64,000 nucleotides of DNA from Prosopocoilus inquinatus (taxonomy: Eukaryota; Arthropoda; Insecta; Coleoptera; Lucanidae), in NCBI GenBank assembly GCA_036172665.1, contig CM069870.1, positions 21,674,001 through 21,738,000 of the forward strand, given 5' to 3'. Shown in pieces: positions 1,813 to 42,988 of the stretch. The notes under the pieces are model-generated. The model searched no databases. It was given only the letters and a program-made list of their open reading frames with translations, and was not told the origin of the DNA. The position numbers were made by a program, and so were the translations under genes. How positions within the stretch are numbered: position 1 is the stretch's first letter; each line of letters opens with the position of its first letter.

Positions 1813-4800
1813 GTAAGTAAGTCGAACTTTTAATACTGTTAACTAATTTATTTAAAGCGACACGTAAACACTAATTTATTTAACGAGGAATATAAAACGC
1901 TTAGGGCCAGTTGTACCAAGGAGGTTTAAACTGATGTTCAACTGAACATCTTCTTCCACTTCAAAGTAAACAAATTCTCATAGGATCTTAGGAGGATGTA
2001 TGGCAATTAATGCATTTATAAACAAAATTTGATGCGATTTTGTTTTGCTTTGAACCTGCTTCAGTTGAACGTCGTTTAAACCCCCTTGGTACAGCTGGTC
2101 CTAAAAGATTATTTCAACTTAAGCCGAGCGTTCACTTTTAACAATCTATTGCGGTCCGCTCTTTTCATTCACTGGCCGCTCGTTTTTATAACTTAGGCTG
2201 ATTTATACACAATATCTTCGAAATCTGCACAGAGAAAAGAAAAATGTTAAATCAACATAATTTTCGTTTGGTTACGTTCAATACATTCATTTATTTAAAA
2301 TAAAAACCATTACGTATTCTATTCAAGTAAATAATGTTTGAGTTAACAAAAAATTGCTTGACTTAATGTAAAGTATGCATTCATTCAAATAAATAATTGC
2401 ATCGACTGTATTCAAACAAAGAGTTTTCTGTGGGTGTCAATTCAGTCAAACAGTTAATCAAGGAGGAGATTCTATAACTTATTAACGGGCAGTGTTATGA
2501 TTGGTTGTTGCCGTAGCAACAGAATTTAACAGTCCTTTAAATTTAACGCTTCTGATACAGAATAGACCCCCTTAGTACGAATATATTAGCCTAACCGATT
2601 CTCCAAATGAATTTCCGCATTACGTGGGCTGCTGGAAAAGTTTCTGGAAACGGTATGAAAAAACGCTTATGAAATTTGGTAAACGGTATCATTGTTTTTC
2701 GAAGTATTCGCCTTTGACGTCAATACACTTTTGCATACGCTCGAACCAATTTCTAAAGCACGTTTTCCACTCTAAAAATGGTACCTCAGAAACCAGTGTC
2801 CGGAATGTTTCAACCGTTGCTTCAGCCGACGAAAATCGCTCAGAACGCATTTTATTTTTGATATTTGGGAACCAAAAGAAATCATTAGGTGATAAATCAG
2901 GTGAAGATGGACAATGAGTCATTAATTCAACATTTTTGTTGGACAAGAAATCAACTGTTTGACGGGCTGAGTGAGAGCTGGCGTTGTCATGATGGAGAAT
3001 AATTCGTCGATTTCGATTGTTTCTTCTTATTTGATCGATGACTTCCGGCAAATAAATTGTAGTATACCAATCAGCATTCACGGTTTTTCGATCCTCTAAA
3101 GCCACGGTTGCTACATGTCCAGTTAAACCAAAGAAGCAAGCAATCATTTGCTTCGCAGCACTGCGTGAACGGACAACTTTTGTCGGTTTTGGTTCATTGT
3201 GAAATACCCAAACGGTAGATTGTTGTATACTTTCTGGCTCGTACGAATAGATCCACGTTTCATCACCAGTAACGATGTTATAAACTAAATTTGAACGACC
3301 TCCATTGAATTTCTTGAGCATTTCTTCGCACCATTTGACACGACCCTGCTTTTGCGCTTCTGTTAAATTGTGTGGGATCCAATGACTGCAATGCTTTCGT
3401 ACGTTCAAATGATTAAGCAAAATCTGGTGTATTGCTTTCATGTCAATGCGTAAGGATGCTTGAATCTCACGGTATGTCACATGTCGATCTCACTCAAGCA
3501 TTTCACGCACAGCATCTACATTAGTGGCAACAACAGATGTTGATGGACGACCTTCACGAAATTCGTCACTGAGAGAGGTACGTCCACGCTGGAATTCGGC
3601 AAACCAATTATAAACACTGCTCTTTGATGGTGCTTCATCTCCAAAAGCCAAATGAAGCCGATCGGGGCATTATTTCGGCATTAGACCACATTTGTAATCG
3701 TAAAAAATCATGGCATGAAAATTTTCACGCGAAATTTCCATGTTTACACAAAATTACTTTTTCTCAAATACTGTACAAACAAAAACAGTTTTTGGATAGG
3801 AACTGTCAATAGAATTATAGGGTAAAAACGTCAAATTTTTCAAATATGACCGTTGATAAACGCTAACAATTCTAGACCTACTAGATTCCAGAAAATTTTC
3901 CAGCAGCCCACGCACAAACAACAGTTTTTGACGATGGTTTTGTAAAAATTACACTTCTATGTAATTAATAACACAGGTCAACAATCAATTTATTTTTTCT
4001 GTTGTTTGTAATCTGACATTTGTTTTGGATTAATGTAGCTACGGTGGTTTCAAATGTCAAACCCATTTTTCCCTATCACGTCAGATTTTTTCTCTAGGGC
4101 ATGTCCATAAAGCAGCGTTTCCCAAACTGTGGGGCGCGCTCCCCTGGGGGGCACGTAAGTCTCCAAAGGGGAAAGCAGCAAAATAAGTATTAAAAAAAAC
4201 TGAACGCAAATTGCAACTAATTTTTCATGTTACTTTTTATAAGAGATTACATATAGTCGCGAGCAATAAATTTTTACCGTCATTAATTTTGTCAAAGGTT
4301 GGCACCGAACCGCATTTTATTAAAACTAAGGAGATTTGTGTCTCAATTTTGAATGCTTGGAATAGTATCTTAAACATTTCATTTATTTTGATTCTTTCTT
4401 GGTAAAATACATACAATGAAAATTTCTAATTTGTGGAATTTGGACGTTTTGACGTTTAGTTTGACAGCGACGACCAAAATTTAATACTCTCGACTGCACA
4501 TATGGCGTTTTTTTTTTTACTTTTTTTTACTTAGAACATACAGTGTAAATATTCCCATATTCAATTTTAGAAAAAATAGTATTAATGCATTTCAGGATAT
4601 GCAAGCAAGCTTCAATAAAACCAATGTGCTATTACTGTTAGTTATGAAATGTAAGGATGTCTGGATCATTGTTTAAGTTCAAATTCGATATTCGACAGGA
4701 AAGAGGGGGCGGGGGTGAATCATAACATCATAACACAGCTCAAAAAGGGGTCGCGAAACCTAGAAGTTTGGGAAACGCTGCCATAACGTATATATCTGTG

Positions 4801-16800: not shown

Positions 16801-19800
16801 CAAAATAATATTCGAAGTCAAAATACTGAGATTGCAAAAATTATTTTGATCAAGGGCGGTCATGAAGTAAACCCAAGAAGCTATTAACAGCAAGTAAATC
16901 CAAGAAATTAAAGAAAAAACAGCAAGTACACTTTTTCAGAACTGCTTGCAAGATTTTGACAATAATCAAAAAATGATTGATACAGTGCACGAGTTGACCA
17001 TAATAATTTTTGATGTCAAAATGTAAACCGTTAACAGACAAGGGGGCGTATTCTTATTCTACTAATTAACGGGCCGTTACAATTTAGAGGTCCTTTAAAA
17101 TTTAAAATACAGTTCCATGATTGGTTGTTACCGTAGCAACAAAATTTAACAGCCCTTTAAAATCAACGCTTTTAATACAGAATAGGCGCCACTGAGTTGA
17201 GAATTTGGATGAACTAAAAACAAAAGTGCAACTTTTCTTTCATCGAAAGTAAGTTTACAGCTTGATATTTACAAAATCACGACAGAAAAAATTATTTACA
17301 TTTGCAGTGTCCGCGTTCTGATTCTATATTTCCATGGTGGAATACATAAGATGAAACGATAAACGATTGGCGTGGGCTTTTTTGGATTAATAGATATTAT
17401 TATTAATGAAGAATCAGCCAAGTTGCGACAGTCAATCTCATTTGCTGTATCCGTTTTAACTGACATTTCATTGGTTACTAACTCTCCCCACCAGAGATAA
17501 GTTTCCTGCTCAACGTTTCACCTATGTATTTCCGCTAAGTTTTTTTTTTTTTGTGATATGCTATTACAACACTTCACCTTTGGTCAAAAGGTGGCGCCAT
17601 ATATGATTTATGTGTGTCACATTGTAATCTCATTATTTTTATGAAAGAAACTGCTACAAAAGTCCTTCGACTTCTCTCCTTTATCCAAAAAATAAAAAAA
17701 ATAAAAAAACAATGAAAGACTTGCCCGATGCGTAGGAATTTTTGGGAAACATGGTTTATTAAAATTTTCTGTCAAAAACAAAATCTTGATCAGAAGTGAT
17801 CGAATTTTGTTTCCTCGTTAAAAGCAAAAAGATGTCTTTTGCATTGTTTTTTTTTTGTCAAGAGCAATAAAAAGGGACAAATTACTGTGATTAAAACGAC
17901 AGTACCGCGACAAAGAACATCGAAAAAATACAACGATCTCATATATTTTTATTTCTCTCTCTTGTAACGCATCTTTTGTATCTGCTTTTCCTTTTTCAAA
18001 AACAAAAAAAAAATACAAATGATTGTTCAGTATGTTAAAAACGTTGAAAAGGAAAACATTTTGAAATGCTGTTGCGGCAGTTTCCCTTCGGTCAAGAGAT
18101 GGCGCTTTGAACGATTCCTGTCTCCTGTCTTGAATTTGAACTTGAAATATGGAAATTAAAAGAAAATCATTGCGAAGACAGAGTATGACTTGAAACGTCA
18201 GCGTGAATATGAAATTCAGTTACAGAAATTTCGATAAAAATCGTTTTCCCTTTTGGCCAAGAGGTGGCGCTTCATTTAAGATGCCTGTGACGCCGTGATT
18301 TTATGTTTTCTAAATCACTCTGTGTGTGAGTTAAAGTTAAATCATCTGAATATTTAAGAAACGTTGGGAATCCCTGTCCAAGAGTGGCGTAGGTTCCAAG
18401 ACGTTCTGCATTAAATTGTACATTTAGTTTTCCTTTTATTTTGAATACTTGAGTACTTCGATGAAAATAAAAAAGTGAGGCAAACGACAAAAGAGGAAGT
18501 GACAATGCTAATAAAATTGTAAAAATTGCGCCTAAATGTTCGTGCGATTGAGATCGAAGCAGCGGCAGCTGACGGGTTACGTCCCGCGCCAGCGTCGACG
18601 CCGCTTTGATTGGAAGGAGGTTTAAGGGCATCGCTGACTGTGGGCTTTTTTACATTATACGTCATGCTTCATTATGTACTACGATGCTCAACTTAAATGA
18701 TACTTCTGCACGCGAACCACACCCTTAAGAACATTCAGCGTAAGGGCTACGAAACTGTCAAATCATTATCATTTATAGTGAGAATTGCTATACATATTTA
18801 ACAGAAACAACGTCATGCGGACTTTTGTGTAACAGTTGTGGATAAATTTTATTATCATCCTGAATTCCACCTCGTCCCCCATCTATTATAATCAAGGCGC
18901 GGGAAGCTTGTGGAAGTGTAGTGCGAACGACCTAATTACTAATTAGTGCACAAAAACTGTACAAAGTATGTAAACAATCAATGGCGCACGCGCTAATTAT
19001 AAATAAAATAAGCAGTGGCGGACTTAGGGCTGGGCAACTGCCCGGGGCCTCGCGCCTTAAGGGGCCCCGCGCAATCTGCCAGATCTGTCAATTTCGTCTA
19101 ATTTTATGCTCTTTCCGGAAACTATTTTTATTACTACAGGATGTTTGAGAAAAGCTGAGTGTTTATTTTATTTTATTTTTCTAACGGTACCCTCCCAACT
19201 GGACAAAATTGACGGGTCCGACCGTATTTTTTTTTTTTTTTTTTAATTAATCGTCTGGAAAAATTAATCGAACGACCGTTGTTTCTTCTTCTGTTTGATT
19301 TAGTTTAATTTATTTTTATTTTTTAATTCAGTTTATCGTTCAATCGATAGGATTTTAGGTTTTAATTTTATCAGTTGATCATCTTTTGTTTTTGTTTCTT
19401 GTTTTAATTTCCTCGATTTGAGTTTATTTTGCATTTTAATCACTTCGATCGATTGCTACCTTTGTTTTCTACTCTTTTAATTTCGGTTAGATTTTGTTTA
19501 TTATCAACTGATCATTTTTTGTATTTTTTTTTTATTTACTCGATTTTACATTTTAATCCTTTGGATCGATCGCCATTTTTGTTTTCTGTTTTATGCGATT
19601 TCATGTTATTTATTGATTATTAATTGATCGTCTTTTGTTTTGTTTCTTGTTTTATTTACTCGATTTGAGTTTATTTTGCATTTTAATCACTTCGATCGAT
19701 GGCGATTTTTGTCTTCTCGTTATGTGATTTGATTTTATTTATTAATTATATTTTTTTAACACTTAGCGATCATTTTTTTTTAAATATTTATGTATACTAT

Positions 19801-22800
19801 TTTTATTTTCATCTATCATCTTTTGTATTTTTCTTTTTCTTTCGTTTAATTTTATTTGATATGTTTTCTTATTTTTTAATTATCAATTGATCGTCCTTTA
19901 GTTTGTTTTTTCTTATAATTTGCTGGATTTGAACGTATTTTACATTTTAATCTGTTGGATTCACCGCCATTTATATTTCCTTCCCTCGTATGCGATTTGA
20001 TTTTATTTATTGAATATCAATTGATCATCTTTTGTTTTTGTTTTTTGTTTTCTACTTACTGGATTGGAATTTGTTTAACGTTTTAATTCCTTCGATAACT
20101 TTATTTGGTATTGTGGCGAGCCAACCTGACTTAGCGCAAGGCGTCAAGAAGTCGGTCCGCTTCGATGTGTCATCGGCCGTCACGCGTTCGGGGCCTACAT
20201 CGAACAAACTAGAATCTTCCAGCATAGAGACTTCCAGACGCCAGCAAATGATATAAAATCGCCCGGAGTTGACTCACCAGGGAGTCGAATTCGAACAGCG
20301 ATCGTCGAAGTTAGATTTTAGTGTGAAAATAAATTGTTAGAAATAAATTAGTTTTTAAGCTTTATTAAATTACGGTTAAGTTTTTATCGAGTGTTTTATT
20401 CGTTTAAATAAATAAACTCAAACCCTAGAAACGTAACAGTGGTGTCGGTGTGCGGGTTTGTGAAAATAAATAAACAATTTAAAGTAAATTAAATTTAATC
20501 AGATTATTAAATTATTAAAAAAAAAACAATGGCTACGAGAAAAGTGTTGTTGAAAGACTTAAAAGTGGCCGAATTAAAAACCGAATTGGAAGAACGAGAG
20601 TTAGAAACCTGTGGTTTGAAAGGCGCACTTCAACAGCGTCTCCGATCCGATTTGTTGACAGCTGGTGAAGATCCAGAGACGTTCCTTTTCGAAATTTCGT
20701 GTGGTCCCGTCGATTTTAATAAAATCTTGAAGGATGAATTTCGAGAACAATCCAGAAATTTCAAGGACGAACTTCGAGAACAATCCAGAAATTTGGACGA
20801 GAAGTTTCTAGAACAATCTGGAAATTTCAAGGACGAACTTCGAGAACAATCCAGAAATTTGGACGAGAAGTTTCAAGAACAGTCTGGAAATTTAGAGAAG
20901 AAACTTCTAGAACAATCTGGAAATTTCAAGGACGAGCTTCGAGAACAATCCAGAAATTTAGAGGAGAAGCTTCTAGAACAATCTGGAAATTTCGATAAAT
21001 TACAGAATAAATTGTTGGAACAATCTAGAGACTTAGACGAGAAATTTCTAGAGCAATCCAGAAATTTCGACGAGAAACTTCTAGAACAGTCCGGAAATTT
21101 GAAGGGTGAATTTCTAGAACAGACGAAAGGACTCGAAGATAAACTAGTGGTAAAAATATCGGAAGAAACAAGGAACTTGCAAGAAAATGTGGAAGAAATA
21201 ATATTCCAGCAGGATAATAAAATCAAAAATCTGGAACAAATCATGGCGGGGTTGCGAGTGTTCGGGGATCAGCCACCAATAGAAGTACTAGAAAATAATG
21301 AAACCCGAATTGTGGAAGGACCAGCAGAAAATTCGAAATTAAAAATAAAACCACCGACGTTCGATGGAAAATCTTCTTGTCCCAACTACTTCAAACAGTT
21401 CGAAGCAGCAGCAAAGGCGAACAGATGGACGGCCAGCGAAAAAGCCACTTCGTTAATTGTGGCCTTGAGAGGGGACGCTATCGATGTGCTACAGACGATG
21501 CCGCCAGAGGAACAAGAAGACTTCGACAAGCTGGTGAATAGGATGGAAATGCGTTACGGACAGGCCCATCTGACCGAGGTATACCATGCGCAGTTGAGGA
21601 ATCGCTGTCAGAAATCCGGAGAAACTCTTCAGGAATTCGAAGCAGACGTTGCGCGTCTGGCCCAGTTGGCATATCCCACAGCTCCTGTTGAATTCAAGGT
21701 GGGATCTACTATAAAGGAGCGACCCAGGGAGTATACCACCGCCGAGGATGTTCGCCGCATTGTGGAACAGGTGTTCAAACAGAAGAAACCGCTGGTGCGG
21801 CCAGGAGGAAGGACATGTTCGCAGGCGATGTCCAAAGCCCAGACAGGATCCAAGGAAGCCACAGTTAAACTAAGCCGGGTCGGTGCAGAGGGGCAAACGT
21901 CGACCCGTATTCAAAGGCCCCCAAAGACGAAAGCCAACCAAGTAATATCCCTACGGCAGTTAACCAGCAGTATCTTCGTGGATGTTACCATTGATGACAT
22001 TCCTCACACCATGTTGTTGGATACGGGTGCGACGAAGACCATCCTAAGACCCGACGTCATTAAGTCATCTGGACGCACCGAGCCGACCAAGTGGAAACTG
22101 AAAACAGCAACTGGAACATCAGCAACTGTCCACGGTGAAGTAGAGGTTATCATCACCATTGGTTCAACTCCAATAAAACACCGTGCACTGGTGGCAGATA
22201 TAGAGGACGAGGCAATTTTGGGCATGGACGTCATGTGTGCCCACGGGTTCCAATTGGACTTAAAGCGTGGCGTGATGGCGGTCAATAATGAGGAGTTGGT
22301 TCTACATCAACGAGGGGACGTGGCCGCTCGAGTAGTCCTCGCTGAAGACGTTGTATTACCCAGCAGGACGGAGGTTATCGTCGACGCAAAACTGGACGGT
22401 GTTTTTCAAGATGGGCAAGTCATTATGGTTGAACCTAATACTGATGATCAAAGGATTGGAAGAGGAGTCCTCGTTGGGAAAATGTTGTTGACGGCGAAGA
22501 AGGAAGTACCTGTCCGCCTGATGAACGTCAATTGTTTCTCTGTCAATATCAAGAAAGGAACAATCTTGGGAAGCTGCACCATGGTGTCCTCCATCTCCCG
22601 GCAACTTGAAACAAACGTGCCAGAAGCGAAAGTCCCAAAGAAATTATGGGAAATGGTTATGTCAACAGCCCAGGAATTGACTCCAGACCAGAAGACAAAA
22701 GCAAAGAATCTGATCGGCCGCTATCAAGATGTATTTGAGGTAGAAAATGGATCCAAGGGAAGAACTGATGTCGTGAAACACAAAATAGAGACTGGAGAAG

Positions 22801-25800
22801 AAAGACCTATCCGTCAAGCTCCAAGGCGATTACCGTTGGCGAAGCGTGAGGAAGCGGAACGCATTATTCGCGAGATGGAAAAGGATAATGTAATAGAACC
22901 ATCAAGCAGCCCGTGGGCGTCACCAGTAGTGCTTGTGAAGAAGAAGGATGGGTCCACCAGGTTCTGTGTAGACTACCGGTTACTCAATAATGTCACCAAG
23001 AAGGACAGCTATCCCTTGCCCCGGATTGATGATACCCTGGACACCCTGGCCGGCTCAAAGATCTTCTTAACTTTGGACTTAAAGAGTGGATATTGGCAAG
23101 TGGAGCTGGCGCCCGAAGATCGAGAAAAGACGGCGTTATCCATTGGTATGGGTCTGTGGCAGTTCACAGTGATGCCATTCGGGTTATGTAATGCCCCAGC
23201 GACATTCGAGAGGTTAATGGAGACGGTTCTGAAAGGTCTGTCCTGGACAACGTGCATGGTGTACCTTGACGACATAATTGTCGTGGGAAAGACGTTCGAC
23301 GACCACCTAAGGAACCTGGAAGGAGTGTTCCAGCGGCTTCGCGGAGCTGGACTAAAGCTTAGCCTCAAGAAGTGTCACCTGTTCCAGAAGGTAGTGAATT
23401 ACCTGGGGCACATTGTTAATGGAAACGGAATCGCCGTGGACCCTGTGAAGATTCAGGTGGTGAAAGACTGGCCAACTCCCAGAAATAAACACCAAATAAG
23501 GAGTTTCCTTGGCCTGTGCACTTACTATCGGCGCTACGTTCCTGGATTTGCAGACATTGCTAAGCCGTTAACAAAACTCACTGAAGAAGGTCGTCCATTT
23601 GAATGGGACCAACAGTGTCAAATTGGCTTTGAACAACTAAAGCAGTACTTGGTTAGTGCTCCTATTCTGAGTTATCCTCTCCCGGAAGGCAAGTTCGTCG
23701 TGGACACAGATGCTAGCAACGTTGGGATTGGTGGCGTACTCTCCCAGATACAAGAGGGGCAAGAGAAGGTGATCGGCTACTTCAGTAAAGTCCTATCAAA
23801 GCCGGAACGAAACTATTGCGTCACAAGAAGGGAATTGCTAGCCGTCGTAAAAACGATAGAACACTTCTACAAGTACTTGTATGGTAGACGCTTCCTGCTG
23901 AGGACCGACCACGCCGCTCTAAAATGGCTTCTCCGTTTCAAGAACCCAGAAGGGCAAGTTGCACGATGGATCGAACGACTTCAGGAGTACGATTTTGAAA
24001 TTCAGCATCGGGCAGGAACTAGCCATCGAAATGCCGATGCTCTGTCGAGAAGGCCCTGTGCCGAAGACTGTAAGCACTGTAGTCGTTTGGACGAGAAAAT
24101 AGCCACGACTGCGAGGACAGCCATTGTTGATGACAAATGGCAAGGCGAAGAACTGCGAAGAGATCAGGAGAACGACCCGGATTTGAAATTAGTGCTAGAA
24201 TGGAAAAGCAGCAGGGACGCGAGGCCTACCTGGGAAGAGGTAGCACCATGTGCACCGTCCGTAAAATCATACTGGGCGCAGTGGGACTCCATAGTGTTGG
24301 ATCGTGGTCTTCTGAGACGAAGCATAGAGAATCAGGAAGGCATGGAACAGAAGACACAGTTACTGATCCCAAAGAATAGGGTGCCAGAAGTTCTGAGGGA
24401 ACTTCACGATGGAACTTCGGGAGGGCATCTGGGAGTTAAGAAGACCATGGAGAAGGTGCGCGAAAGATTTTACTGGGTGAACTGCAAGGAAGACGTGAAG
24501 GATTGGTGCAGAAAGTGTGCAGTCTGCGCAGCCAGTAACGGCCCCCACAGGCGGGGTAAGGCTCCCATGAGACAGTACAACGTTGGAAGTCCTTTTGAGA
24601 GAGTTGCCATCGATGTAGCCGGCCCGTTTCCAGAAACGAATGGTGGAAACAAGTACATCGTCGTGGTAATGGACTACTTTAGCAAGTGGGTTGAAGCTTA
24701 CGCCCTACCTAACCAAGAGGCAGTCACTATTGCGGAAGTCCTTGTCAGGGAATGGATCAGTCGGTATGGTGCACCTATGGAACTGCATTCAGACCAAGGA
24801 AGGAACTTTGAATCGGCCTTGTTCAAGAACGTGTGTACTCTGCTCGGCGTACGAAAAACTAGAACAACTGCACTCCACCCACAGTCGGACGGAATGGTGG
24901 AAAGGTTCAATAGAACCATCAACCGACATTTGTCCAAGGTCGTTTCCAATCATCAGAGGGACTGGGACACGTACATCCCCCTGTTTCTAATGGCATACCG
25001 CTTGTCTGTTCATGAGACAACAGGGGAGACTCCCGCGAAAGTGGTATTCGGGCGAGAGCCGAGACTGCCCTGCGACCTGAAGTTTGGTGTGAAGCCTGGC
25101 GAAGTCTCTGCCGACGAAGATTACGTGAGCAAATTACGCAGGAAAATGGATGATATCCACAACCAAGTGCGTCACAATATACAGACGGCCAGCGATCGGA
25201 TGAAGGAGCACTATGACATCAACGCTCAACACGGGGGATACCACCCTGGAGCACTGGTCTGGCTTTATAACCCCCAAAGACGTCGAGGCCTCTCCCCAAA
25301 ATTACAGACCTCTTGGGAAGGTCCTTACAAAGTGATGAAACGGATCAACGACGTCGTTTACCGCATCAGGAAGGTCCCCCATGGCAAACCCAAAGTAATC
25401 CACTTCAACCGGATAGCCCCTTACCATGGAGAAGCAGATGAAGGGACAGTACAAAGGGCGCAAGTTTCCGAAGTGAACTTCGAAACCTTCATGTCTCATC
25501 ACGCCGAAGGAAGCAAGGCACGGTTTGGAGTGACCACGGAGAAGCAACAAGATCTCTTTAAAGTGCCACTGGAGTACAGTCTGGCCCACTGCGTAGCAGA
25601 AGACCTGAAAATGTCCAAAGGAATCGCTCAGGTGTTTAAGAAGAAATTTGGCCAAATCGAGGAGCTACGAAGACAGCATCCCGTGGTAGGCAAGAGCTTG
25701 CAGATCATTGATTCGACGGCAGATCGGAGGCGCCACGTGCATTATTTAGTCACTAAGAAGACATCAAGCGGTAAACCTGACTATGTGACTATGTGGAGAG

Positions 25801-28800
25801 CCCTATATAGCCTGAGGAGACAGCTAATAGAGAACCATCAGATGAAGTTAGCCATCCCCAAATTGGGCTGCGGATTGGACGGACTAGACTGGAGAGTAAT
25901 TCGAAGCATGCTGGAAGTCATCTTCCACAGAACGGGAATTGAAGTCCTAGTCTGCAGCCACCACCCACAGGCAACAGTCAGCAACAGCAAAACCGTAGAC
26001 TGTTACTTCTTCCAGGCGGGAAGTTGCAAGAATGGGCCAGCATGTAGATTCCGACACCCTCCTTCAAGACTATCACCAGGAACATTTCGAGACGAAACGT
26101 TTCTAAGAAGGGGGCAGTGTGGCGAGCCAACCTGACTTAGCGCAAGGCGTCAAGAAGTCGGTCCGCTTCGATGTGTCATCGGCCGTCACGCGTTCGGGGC
26201 CTACATCGAACAAACTAGAATCTTCCAGCATAGAGACTTCCAGACGCCAGCAAATGATATAAAATCGCCCGGAGTTGACTCACCAGGGAGTCGAATTCGA
26301 ACAGCGATCGTCGAAGTTAGATTTTAGTGTGAAAATAAATTGTTAGAAATAAATTAGTTTTTAAGCTTTATTAAATTACGGTTAAGTTTTTATCGAGTGT
26401 TTTATTCGTTTAAATAAATAAACTCAAACCCTAGAAACGTAACAGTATGATTTTTTATTTTTTAATTAACAATTGACAGTCCTTTGGTTTGGTTTTTCTT
26501 TTAATTTGCTCTATTTCAGTATATTGTGCATTTTAATCCTTTGGATTGATCGCCTTTTTTGTCTTCTTCCCTTGTTTGCAGTTTGATTTATTTATTGATT
26601 ATTAATTTATCGTCTTGTATTTCTGTTTCTTGTTTTATTCACTTTATTGAGTTTATTTTACGTTTTAATCCGTTCGATCGATGGCCAATTTTGTTTTCTC
26701 TTTTACGCGATATTTTTTAATAATATTTTTTTAACATTTAACGATTAATTTTTTTTTCGTCTGTCATCTTTTGTTTTTTCTTTCGTTTGACTTTATTTGA
26801 TGCGATTTTTTATTTTTTAATTATTAATAGATTGACTTATTGTAGTTTTTTTTTTCTTCGTTTACTCAATTTGAGTTTATTTTGGTTTAAACTTTAATAT
26901 TTAATGATATTAACTTATTGTTAGTTTTATATATTTTAATTTACGTCCTATCTTCAACCACGATCGTCTTTTGTTTTTGTTTTATTACATTTGACGATAC
27001 TTTATTTTTATCTTGATTATCAATTAATTGTCTTTTTCTTTTTTTTATGCTATATTCTTATTTTATAATTACCTTTTTCTTGCCAAGTCATATTTTTATT
27101 TCACAAATTTTGCTCCTTTGTTTCATTTTTATTTTACACTTTTAAATAAGGACTCATTTTAAAAATTGAAACATTTCAAATGGCAGCCACTTGAATTTAT
27201 TTTATTACCTAAACCGAAACTGTCAAATGGTATCATTTAAGTACATATATATTTTAGGTATGAATCACTTAACGACGCCAATTTGTAAACAATTTGCTCT
27301 TTCATTGCCCTCGTTGAGTAAGTACGTATACATAACTCTTTTGCACAAATTGAACATTCTGGATTCAGGAATGCGAAAAATGCACGCGGTGCACTGCAGG
27401 CACAGTTACGATTTATTTTTGTGTTGCTGGTTTTTTCGAATGACACTTCTGCGATGATGATCGGCGGCCGTCGAAGTCCGTTACTTTGTTCTACTTTCTT
27501 CGCAGTTGCATTCCTGAAAATAAGAAATTACGAGTCTACCGGTATATTGGTCTTCGTCTTCCTCCTTCGCGGATTAATCAATCGGGCGTACAAAATCAAT
27601 CTGCGTTGTTAAATTGACACCGCCTGCTTTATCAGCTCTTTAAATAAAATATGATTTAAGTCTGGCTGCATTAATTAATAATGCAGTGACACAACTCGCA
27701 GTATTTTATTGTTGTTTAACGTTTCCATTAGACAATCGGCATGTTCTGCAGGTACAACGATGCTCACCATAAATGATACCATTTGACAGTTTCGAAGCCC
27801 TTACGCTGAATGTTCTTAAGGGTGTGGTCCGCGTGCAGGAGTAACATTTAAGTTGAGCGTCGTAGTACACTAATGCTTAAAAGTTTCGAAATGAAAAGCA
27901 ATAAAATCGTTCGAATTTGAACCTTATTGAAACGGGCCTAATATATTTCGAACCTTAAAGAACAGAGACACCTTCTCCGCACCCCGATAGGAGGGTTGTT
28001 TACTTAGGTCCTATTAAACCCCGGCCGGTGCAGATGTTTATGGTTTGTTGAATTTCGTTGCCAGTATTTGGTTCCGAGTATTTATTGAGGCGACGCGCGG
28101 TTGCGAACGCGGACGCGGTGGCGAATTTGTTTGTTCTCTTTTGCTTTAACTTAAAAATTGAACAAAAAATTTTTTTTTTAATTAGAATATTTTATATTGT
28201 TAAATAACAGGATTTCAGATCATATTATAAAGACATATAAATGTTAAATTGCTATAAAGGATCGACGATGTTAATTAATCTGAAAAATTATAATTATACC
28301 AAATTTCTGCCTTTATACACTTCTGGTTTGTTTGACTTCACAAAAATTTTATTCGTTTGTAGTTTGTGTATGTTTTTCTGTGGATTCTAAAATCTTCATT
28401 ACGAGAAATACATAAATAGATTTTTAGTAAATATGAAATACAGGGTGATTTATTAGCTCACCGACAAGCTTTGCCATACGGAAAGCTCACATAATTTTAA
28501 GAAAATAATAACAATTAGGACATATGTTCGATTTTATTTATTTTTAAGTAAATAGAAGACCTCACAATTTTGATTCTAGTTATTTTGTCCCGTTCCTCTG
28601 TACAGCTGTTTCAGTCCTATTTGGGGCTTCGTCAGCAGAAGTGATCGCAGGATGTCGCTATTTAAGCGGTTTCTGTTATGCTATTTAAGCATTTCCGTTA
28701 TATTTTACATTTTTTCACGTCATCTTTATTTTACAAATGTTAATATATTGATATTTTCAATTCAATTTTATCATACACGTCTTATTCACATGTCAAGAAA

Positions 28801-40793: not shown

Positions 40794-42988
40794 TAAGTCC
40801 TGAGAATTTTACGTGCAATACCTGCCCAAAGGGCTTGATTACATGGCCACCTATGACGTCGAGATTGAGATACGCCCAATCAACGCGCCCGCATGTCTTG
40901 ATCAACATGCGGACTCCCAGAATGGATTGGGTTGCAAGCCCCGCACCCCCTCTAGTGTAGGCGAGAGATTATCCACTCTCTACTAGCTCTGCAGGCTAGT
41001 ACCCGAGCTAGAATGTAGCTCACCCGCCGGGGTGGGGAAACCACCCTTAGCCCAGCATGCGGGCTGTTAACCACTGCCACTACGAGTCCAACCAAATCGA
41101 CCGGACGGGAGCAGACCAGCAAGCCAGCCCACCCCCGGGGCTCAACCGGTCCCCATAGTACCAGCTTACGTCACTGGTGGGACGTTTCGGGCCGAAACCC
41201 TTCAGATGGGGCCCTTGCAAGCCCCGGCTTTGATCAGCCAACTCGGGTAGGTGGGGTCGTCATTCCCAAAGATCCCTTTCCTGTTTCCAACCAGGTCACG
41301 GACAAACACTCAAGCCGAGGCTTGGGGCCCGCCCGATCCCAGTCTTCCGTCAGGAGGAAACCTCCCTGCCTTCATATACAGACTCCCGAACGCGCACGGC
41401 TTACGGCTGGACGGCTTCAGATACAAAATAACCATTCACCCGTCAGTTCACTCGACGCATGTTCTCCTCAACCTCACACTCGCAGTCTTCTCCTTTCAAA
41501 CACACAACGCGCAAATTCAGACACTCTTTCAAATCTCGCTTTATCTAACACACTTCACTTACATCCATATTTCCATTCTCATTCATTCGCACACCCCATC
41601 CATCCAAATCACGTATGTCATCATACAATTTGCACTCTCCTAACACATGCTTCCAATCCTCTCTCTCTCACCACAGGCACAAAGTTCAATCATACTCAAA
41701 CCCCGTTCATACAAGAAAGCATTCAAACTTCCATGCCCAGTCAGGAGAAAGCAAACATGCAACCCAGGGTCAAACCACACATTTCTCCCCGCAAATGTGA
41801 CATCACGGACGAAGGAAAATGTCACCCTCCCTTTCACACTCTCATTCCACCTTTCTTGCCACCTTTCATTCAATCTTTCACGCAACACCCTTTTGCATTC
41901 AACTAGGCCCAACACATTCACGTCATTTTCGCTAAGCAACCCCTCACCAATCACGCCGAGTCTCACACCTCTCTTTGCTCTCCAAAGCAATCCTCTTCTC
42001 ACTGCCTCAAGATCCCAGGGAAGACCCCCGTGGAGCACCTGCATGGCGACCGTCGAAACCGTCCTACAAACACGAACACAGGGATACAACGCAACTCTCT
42101 GACATCTATTCGTACAATCTCTACCATAACCAAAACACATTAGGTCACACCATACATTCGCACCATACATAACACACGCAGTAAACAAACCATCATACAC
42201 ACATCGAGCTGCTCTCCGGTCCAGGCCCCAGTCCTTCCGCAGTACTCGCCTCATGCATCCTACAACATTGGTTAGCTTTCTCGTTAGACATTCCACATGC
42301 ACCCTGAAGTTCATTCTTTCAGTCACGGTCAGACCTAAGTACTTCACGCTCACTGCATACTTCAGCGCTCGCCCATTCACCCTGATTTGTGGAGGTCTAT
42401 TGCCCGACAGCTTCCCTTTCAACAACATGCACACAATCTTTTCATCCGACACACTTACACCCACAGACTCACCCCAAGCTGTAACGACTCTCATTCTCTC
42501 TTCCGCACATACTTTTATCTCCTTCCTGCTGTTCCCCTCTACCAAGACCAGAAGGTCATCAGCATAGGCCACCCCCTTACATCCTTCTTCAGTCAAATCA
42601 TTCAACAACACATCCATCATGGCGTTCCACACAACCGCACCACAGCTCGACCCCTGCGGGTACCCTTTTACAACTTGTCCCCATACCTCCTCATTCACAC
42701 CCCTCACACACACCGTTCTCTCGGAGAAGTAACTCTCTCACAGACGCACTTCCTTACATCCCACCGCTCGGAGCCTCTCTAACACGCTCATCCATGAGAG
42801 GTTGTCGAAGGCGCCCTTGAAGTCCACAAAAACACCCAGTATATACTTCTTGTCACATTCATTCACACGATCCTTCACCTCTCTCCACGCACCCTCAGTC
42901 GATCTGCCCCTCCGAAAATCAAACTGCCTGTCAGACATTCCGTCACCCAATATCCTCTCTAACCGATTCACCATCATTCGCTCCAGAA
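40794..42988 (-). mobile_element. 5'-truncated R1-like non-LTR retrotransposon
   Basis: Flanked by a 14-bp direct repeat CCTAGGTCGGGACA (40780-40793 and 42989-43002), a target duplication. The 5' end stops inside the RT domain; the 3' UTR is GC-rich (about 40794-41545) and has no poly(A) tail. It lies about 750 bp past the ankyrin gene stop codon, in the opposite direction. Confidence 0.85.
41545..42988 (-). pseudogene. R1-clade reverse transcriptase, C-terminal half, broken
   Basis: Reads VLERMMVNRLERIL, RQFDFRRGRSTEGAW, GVFVDFKGAFDNLSW, then GYPQGSSCGAVVWN and the catalytic YADD in VAYADDLLVLVEG. It continues through VKYLGLTVTERMNF and the R1-type linker (RRAARCVYDGLFTACVMYGA) to the terminal Cys-rich motif (CACGER...). 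Defects: an in-frame TGA at 42740-42738 and a frameshift in a GA repeat near 41665, after which the zinc-motif His and Cys continue in another frame to a stop near 41545. The endonuclease part is missing. Confidence 0.82.

Follow-up and report, generated by a model that had tools for sequence, protein, structure and literature searches.

Elements of the Ty3/gypsy group (Metaviridae) share long terminal repeats (LTRs), a protease, reverse transcriptase (RT), RNase H and integrase in that order, a GPY/F module and a 4-base target-site duplication. In the chromoviruses a chromatin-related domain is fused behind the integrase, and macrodomains that erase ADP-ribose are known from RNA viruses. Fish epsilon-like retroviruses (Basta et al., 2009) are described in a review as carrying a macro domain as an additional open reading frame (ORF; PMC4977317). 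Here we analyze a 64,000-nucleotide stretch of the genome of the beetle Prosopocoilus inquinatus (contig CM069870.1, positions 21,674,001 to 21,738,000; hereafter, the window), which contains a Ty3/gypsy element that has all these group features and adds a macrodomain of the TARG1/OARD1 (C6orf130) type and a CCCH zinc finger behind the integrase, as well as a SAP domain at the start of gag. By the review's description, the fish retroviruses and this element are both LTR retroelements with a captured macro domain, but the former carry it as an additional ORF of vertebrate retroviruses and the latter as an in-frame domain of gag-pol. The chromoviruses share the fusion behind integrase, whereas the window element has an enzyme-type macrodomain there and other families of the same genome have theirs away from the integrase. 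No description of a TARG1-type macrodomain in Ty3/gypsy pol was found in literature searches, most subscription papers lying outside their coverage.

The macrodomain of the window element is complete, retains its catalytic pair, lies in frame in gag-pol and is present in high copy number. Taken as a whole and judged jointly, the explanation that we regard as reasonably probable is that the TARG1/OARD1-type macrodomain present in several Ty3/gypsy lineages would have been taken from an animal OARD1 gene and would erase ADP-ribose marks placed by the host.

Identity of the macrodomain

The single gag-pol ORF of the element (20529-26135, + strand, 1868 amino acids) continues for more than 200 residues beyond the integrase C-terminal GPY/F module (Integrase_p58_C, 25320-25421; Pfam PF22938, E = 1.6e-13) to a stop codon inside the 3' LTR. 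The macrodomain occupies about 25530-25953 of this extension; a first-pass annotation had located it correctly at 25551-25944, within limits that prove a little too narrow. The four sequence blocks on which that annotation relied (SLAHCVAEDLKM, FKKKFG, TKKTSSGKPDY and GCGLDGLDW) are all in frame, and K1743 (25755-25757) and D1784 (25878-25880), the counterparts of catalytic K84 and D125 of human TARG1, are 41 residues apart, as in the human enzyme. Homology to OARD1/TARG1 is borne out by a phmmer search against the PDB, in which human C6orf130/TARG1 was matched far beyond chance (E = 4.2e-29), and the predicted fold is a macrodomain closest to TARG1, with the TARG1 structure in complex with ADP-ribose (4j5s) listed in the fold search. 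The general Pfam Macro model matches weakly (E = 0.0021), its 18.4 bits falling short of the cut-off of 22. TARG1 and the window domain thus share fold, sequence blocks and catalytic spacing, but the former is a free enzyme of about 150 amino acids and the latter a part of gag-pol followed by a CCCH finger (C-x7-C-x5-C-x3-H, 26001-26057; Pfam PF00642, E = 4e-6). This finger, the stop inside the 3' LTR and the placement of the domain in other families went beyond the first-pass annotation. A captured CPSF30 zinc finger was rejected as the origin of the CCCH finger: the PDB match to CPSF4 spans 26 residues, too short to name an origin.

The next nearest fold family is the macrodomain of the DarG antitoxin, which is described as having an equivalent of the catalytic lysine; DarG is nevertheless a bacterial antitoxin, its fold-search rows are 18-24% identical, and the window domain falls far under the NCBIfam DarG cut-off. 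Among viral proteins, the Kadipiro virus VP8 macrodomain (rank 1 in the viral fold search, 40% identity over 170 columns) and that of a thrips flavi-like virus (rank 4, 33% over 144 columns) are similar, but these arthropod RNA viruses have macrodomains without an integrase, which the window element possesses. TARG1/DarG-like macrodomains that share 29-40% identity with the query are also found in sixteen IMG/VR viral contigs (L001-L016).

Copies, relatives and placement

The assembly of the same genome (649.6 Mb, 173 contigs) was searched with 150 of 1304 to 1386 candidates scored per search, so that the copy numbers given are minimum values. In the search with 1386 candidates, each of the 150 that were scored matched the macrodomain of the window at 99% or above, and 149 contain no internal stop. 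Thirty copies were fetched, and 29 of them have, immediately behind the macrodomain, an LTR that shares 94-99% identity with the window LTR. Several window-type macrodomains, 100% identical and in opposite orientations within 3.4 kb (L017, L034 and L035; G000:C4, about 36.18 Mb), are nested or rearranged copies.

Other families were brought in by an own-genome search with a fly OARD1, and ten open pieces were scanned for domains. The order protease, macrodomain, RT was found in L048, L058, L072 and L095, and protease followed by macrodomain in L066 and L082, pieces that end ahead of the RT. L085 and L086 join integrase, GPY/F module and macrodomain without a CCCH finger, and L091 combines a window-type end with a second piece in which a macrodomain precedes RT and RNase H. 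The same enzyme domain is hence found at two places in Ty3/gypsy pol: the window family has it as an extension of the integrase C-terminus, with a CCCH finger behind it, and other lineages have it between protease and RT. The 83 own-genome domains form nine clusters at 85% identity, all with the lysine and, 41 residues on, the aspartate, and both catalytic residues are kept in 59 of 59 open copies tested.

A first protein search returned 18 matches, ten of them of element type, which include sequences from the Coleoptera Aromia, Molorchus, Gonioctena, Leptinotarsa and Pyrocoelia; Brassicogethes, also a beetle, was among the matches of the OARD1-type protein search. Of the best 120 of 165 matches in a second search, 114 were Aromia or Molorchus sequences, and the remaining six came from other contigs; all six join integrase, GPY/F and macrodomain in one protein, and four include the RT too. 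Across 130 element rows from the databases, the catalytic residues have not been lost (lysine 130/130, aspartate 129/130), and a GPY/F-tail motif is seen in 119. The four CCCH residues are kept in 129/129, 128/128, 125/126 and 125/126 of the rows that reach them (131 rows including the window). The RRGQC motif, present in 104 of the 130 rows, is encoded in the window by the polypurine tract (AAGAAGGGGG, 26105-26114) and the first LTR bases, which yield a conserved LRRGQC end; its conservation therefore reflects a DNA signal and puts the macrodomain of relatives, too, immediately upstream of the 3' LTR. With 130 database relatives and at least 150 copies in its own genome, the domain is no one-copy oddity, and a chance chimera or assembly artefact, which was rejected on these grounds, has a negligible probability.

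Constraint on the macrodomain

Sixteen clusters of database and window domains (P0007 and P0014, which both carry the lysine and the aspartate, being left out of the count) have a mean identity of 57% (47-74%). Thirty of 141 columns never vary, and 21 of these are near-invariant in 60 other OARD1-type proteins, where 7.4 would be expected (P = 2e-9); column entropies of the two sets correlate (Spearman 0.61), and K1743 is the sole never-changing lysine among 13. Within the own genome, the ratio of nonsynonymous to synonymous substitution (dN/dS, Nei-Gojobori) in the macrodomain is 0.14 for L048-L058, 0.25 for L077-L080, 0.19 for L080-L084 and 0.18 for L077-L084; L048-L067 and L058-L059 duplicate the first of these, and the remaining pairs are near-identical and say little. 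These ratios indicate that the macrodomain evolves under purifying selection, and the presence of an OARD1-type enzyme in a Ty3/gypsy polyprotein is thus backed by sequence, predicted fold, copy number, the catalytic pair and dN/dS below 1. Since a pure ADP-ribose binder would not need both catalytic residues, their retention suggests that catalysis is kept, and the domain is very probably an active hydrolase.

Origin of the domain

In a first tree of 91 rows and 142 columns (flagged as few; P0016 and L014 dropped), 18 window-type domains form one clade (100/100) inside a group whose other members, where named, are flies, mosquitoes and midges (93/94). In a second tree of 66 rows, to which other own-genome families were added, window-type rows again fall together (98/95), with L066 and L091 as their sisters (100/94), and L047, L058, L077, L080 and L084 form a separate clade (98/89); a single branch sets apart all 24 element rows, with support of only 74/75. 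An approximately unbiased (AU) test rejects a single clade of the domains between protease and RT marginally (p = 0.041), for a group named after the tree had been seen and with the place of the domain in L077, L080 and L084 taken over from L082, which belongs to the L077 cluster. The trees do not settle on a single capture: one capture with later moves and several captures are both possible. An insect was the likely donor. No beetle host OARD1 was among the best 120 of 4855 matches listed in a protein search, and none was recognized among the own-genome matches listed, which look swamped by elements. A bacterial or phage origin was rejected, as viral-contig macrodomains and P0019 stand apart from the element clade in the first tree. 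Two rows of the viral-contig type occupy a long branch with fly proteins in the second.

Function and alternative readings

In the mechanism that we propose, the macrodomain would be translated as part of gag-pol, would travel in the particle and the pre-integration complex, and would hydrolyze ADP-ribose from Glu/Asp side chains, from DNA or from both; marks of host ADP-ribosyltransferases (PARP1-like, possibly SIRT6-like) would thereby be erased from capsid, integrase, complementary DNA (cDNA) or chromatin. The chances that the domain counters host ADP-ribosylation appear to us evenly balanced. A more specific version has the domain guard reverse transcription in the manner of an antitoxin, clearing ADP-ribose from thymidine or from the ends of single-stranded cDNA as DarG would. 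We know of no enzyme in insects that attaches ADP-ribose to the cDNA of retroelements, and such a guard, which we think unlikely, would be a special case of the broader explanation. TARG1 is described as stripping ADP-ribose from Glu/Asp, from thymidine and from the ends of DNA, and as also removing PARP1-made ADP-ribose from single-stranded telomeric DNA (PMC11102865). Because reverse transcription yields single-stranded DNA and ends, cDNA is a plausible substrate, but that cDNA or its ends are the main one is doubtful; integrase, capsid and chromatin are other plausible substrates.

The domain might instead read chromatin, binding ADP-ribosylated sites (breaks, PARP1 sites) and steering insertion, with catalysis secondary. 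In L085, L086 and the window family the macrodomain does follow the GPY/F module immediately, as the chromodomain of chromoviruses does, and TARG1 binds ADP-ribose (4j5s); however, a pure reader has no need of the two catalytic residues that are kept, and in other families the domain is not at the integrase tail but between protease and RT, so that we consider integration targeting improbable.

With erasure of host marks as the preferred explanation, several observations count against it. The macrodomain evolves more quickly than the polymerase, being 51-61% identical to six relatives when the RT is 77-84% (the four relatives reaching it) and the integrase 75-82% (six) identical, and dN/dS for L048-L058 is 0.14 in the macrodomain versus 0.04 on the RT side. 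Such rapid change would also be expected if a host OARD1 cDNA had been fused long ago and were carried without function, but dN/dS of 0.14-0.25 in four diverged pairs, the retained catalytic pair and a constraint pattern that matches the host enzyme come close to refuting a functionless passenger, which was rejected as very improbable. Of the 130 database rows, 100 belong to a single 80% cluster with an Aromia protein at its head, many are gene models that lack parts of the element, and one (P0116) has glycine in place of the catalytic aspartate. The window copy itself has a shortened gag although its LTRs are identical: the AVQAFLDGL region, present in 98 of 102 listed relatives having the capsid motif MRYG, is missing (21351-22010), and this copy may therefore depend on others to move. 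Lastly, eight mobile elements were reported as significantly changed in Drosophila without PARP1, five up and three down, an effect that the authors regard as possibly indirect (PMC7712786). Ten more elements were up without reaching significance, nine of them of the gypsy superfamily (PMC7712786); the fly data are mixed. SIRT6 is described as silencing L1 through modification of KAP1 (PMC4695847). Literature searches found no ADP-ribosylation-based restriction of retroelements in insects.

A further possibility, to which we give slightly less than an even chance, is that the macrodomain is a swappable counter-defense cassette of insect Ty3/gypsy elements, gained or moved more than once at either pol site and kept active against host ADP-ribosylation of element protein or cDNA. 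Between L048 and L058 the macrodomain has a synonymous divergence of 1.34, against flanking values of 0.51 (protease side) and 0.36 (RT side); in this single pair the cassette was possibly exchanged between elements, and homogenized flanks would give the same pattern.

Architecture and surroundings of the element

The element is a complete LTR unit (20108-26448, + strand) and the only copy in the window. It is bounded by a GTAT target-site duplication (20108-20111 and 26445-26448), and its 5' and 3' LTRs (20112-20438 and 26118-26444; 327 nt each, TG...CA) are identical, which indicates a recent insertion. The internal part starts with a possible primer binding site (TGGTGTCGG..., 20439-20460; proposed from sequence reading alone, with no tRNA assigned). 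Assignment to Ty3/gypsy follows from the LTRs, the duplication, the GPY/F module and the order of protease (21978-22232; Pfam PF13650, E = 2e-10), RT (22935-23417; PF00078, E = 6e-37), RNase H (23682-23990; PF17917, E = 5e-34) and integrase, with H2C2 zinc domain and rve core (24366-24872; PF17921, E = 1e-20; PF00665, E = 6e-13). Between the GPY/F module and the 3' LTR (25422-26117), the sequence is taken up by macrodomain, CCCH finger and polypurine tract; no env ORF of the kind that marks an errantivirus is found there, nor any further + strand ORF of at least 80 amino acids, and Pfam scans of the window ORF detected no chromodomain behind the integrase.

The gag N-terminus bears a DNA-binding SAP domain (20550-20651; PF02037, E = 2e-6), which is precomputed for many Aromia relatives too, and is followed by 33-nt (11-residue) repeats, probably a coiled coil (20698-21154), in which a 118-nt stretch recurs in ten registers spaced by 33 nt (once 75) and 64-87% alike. 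A CCHC knuckle, seen in ten of 120 listed relatives, all Molorchus, is absent from the window copy. Inverted arms 9 kb apart (18675-18763 and 27781-27869, 94% complementary), with T-rich direct repeats inside, flank the element, and its insertion may have been into another terminal-inverted-repeat unit. Elsewhere in the window, reading of translations alone names a mariner-like transposase ORF (2689-3480) and a non-LTR RT-like ORF (41640-42713), both on the minus strand; Rfam gave no match and ARAGORN no tRNA within it.

Implications

In a single genome, LTR retrotransposons of several families retain a TARG1-type enzyme at two sites in pol, where it evolves under purifying selection. The retained catalytic residues hint that these elements wipe off a mark placed by the host, which suggests that retroelements themselves are under pressure from ADP-ribosylation, and macrodomain-bearing elements would provide natural probes for which element molecule the host marks.
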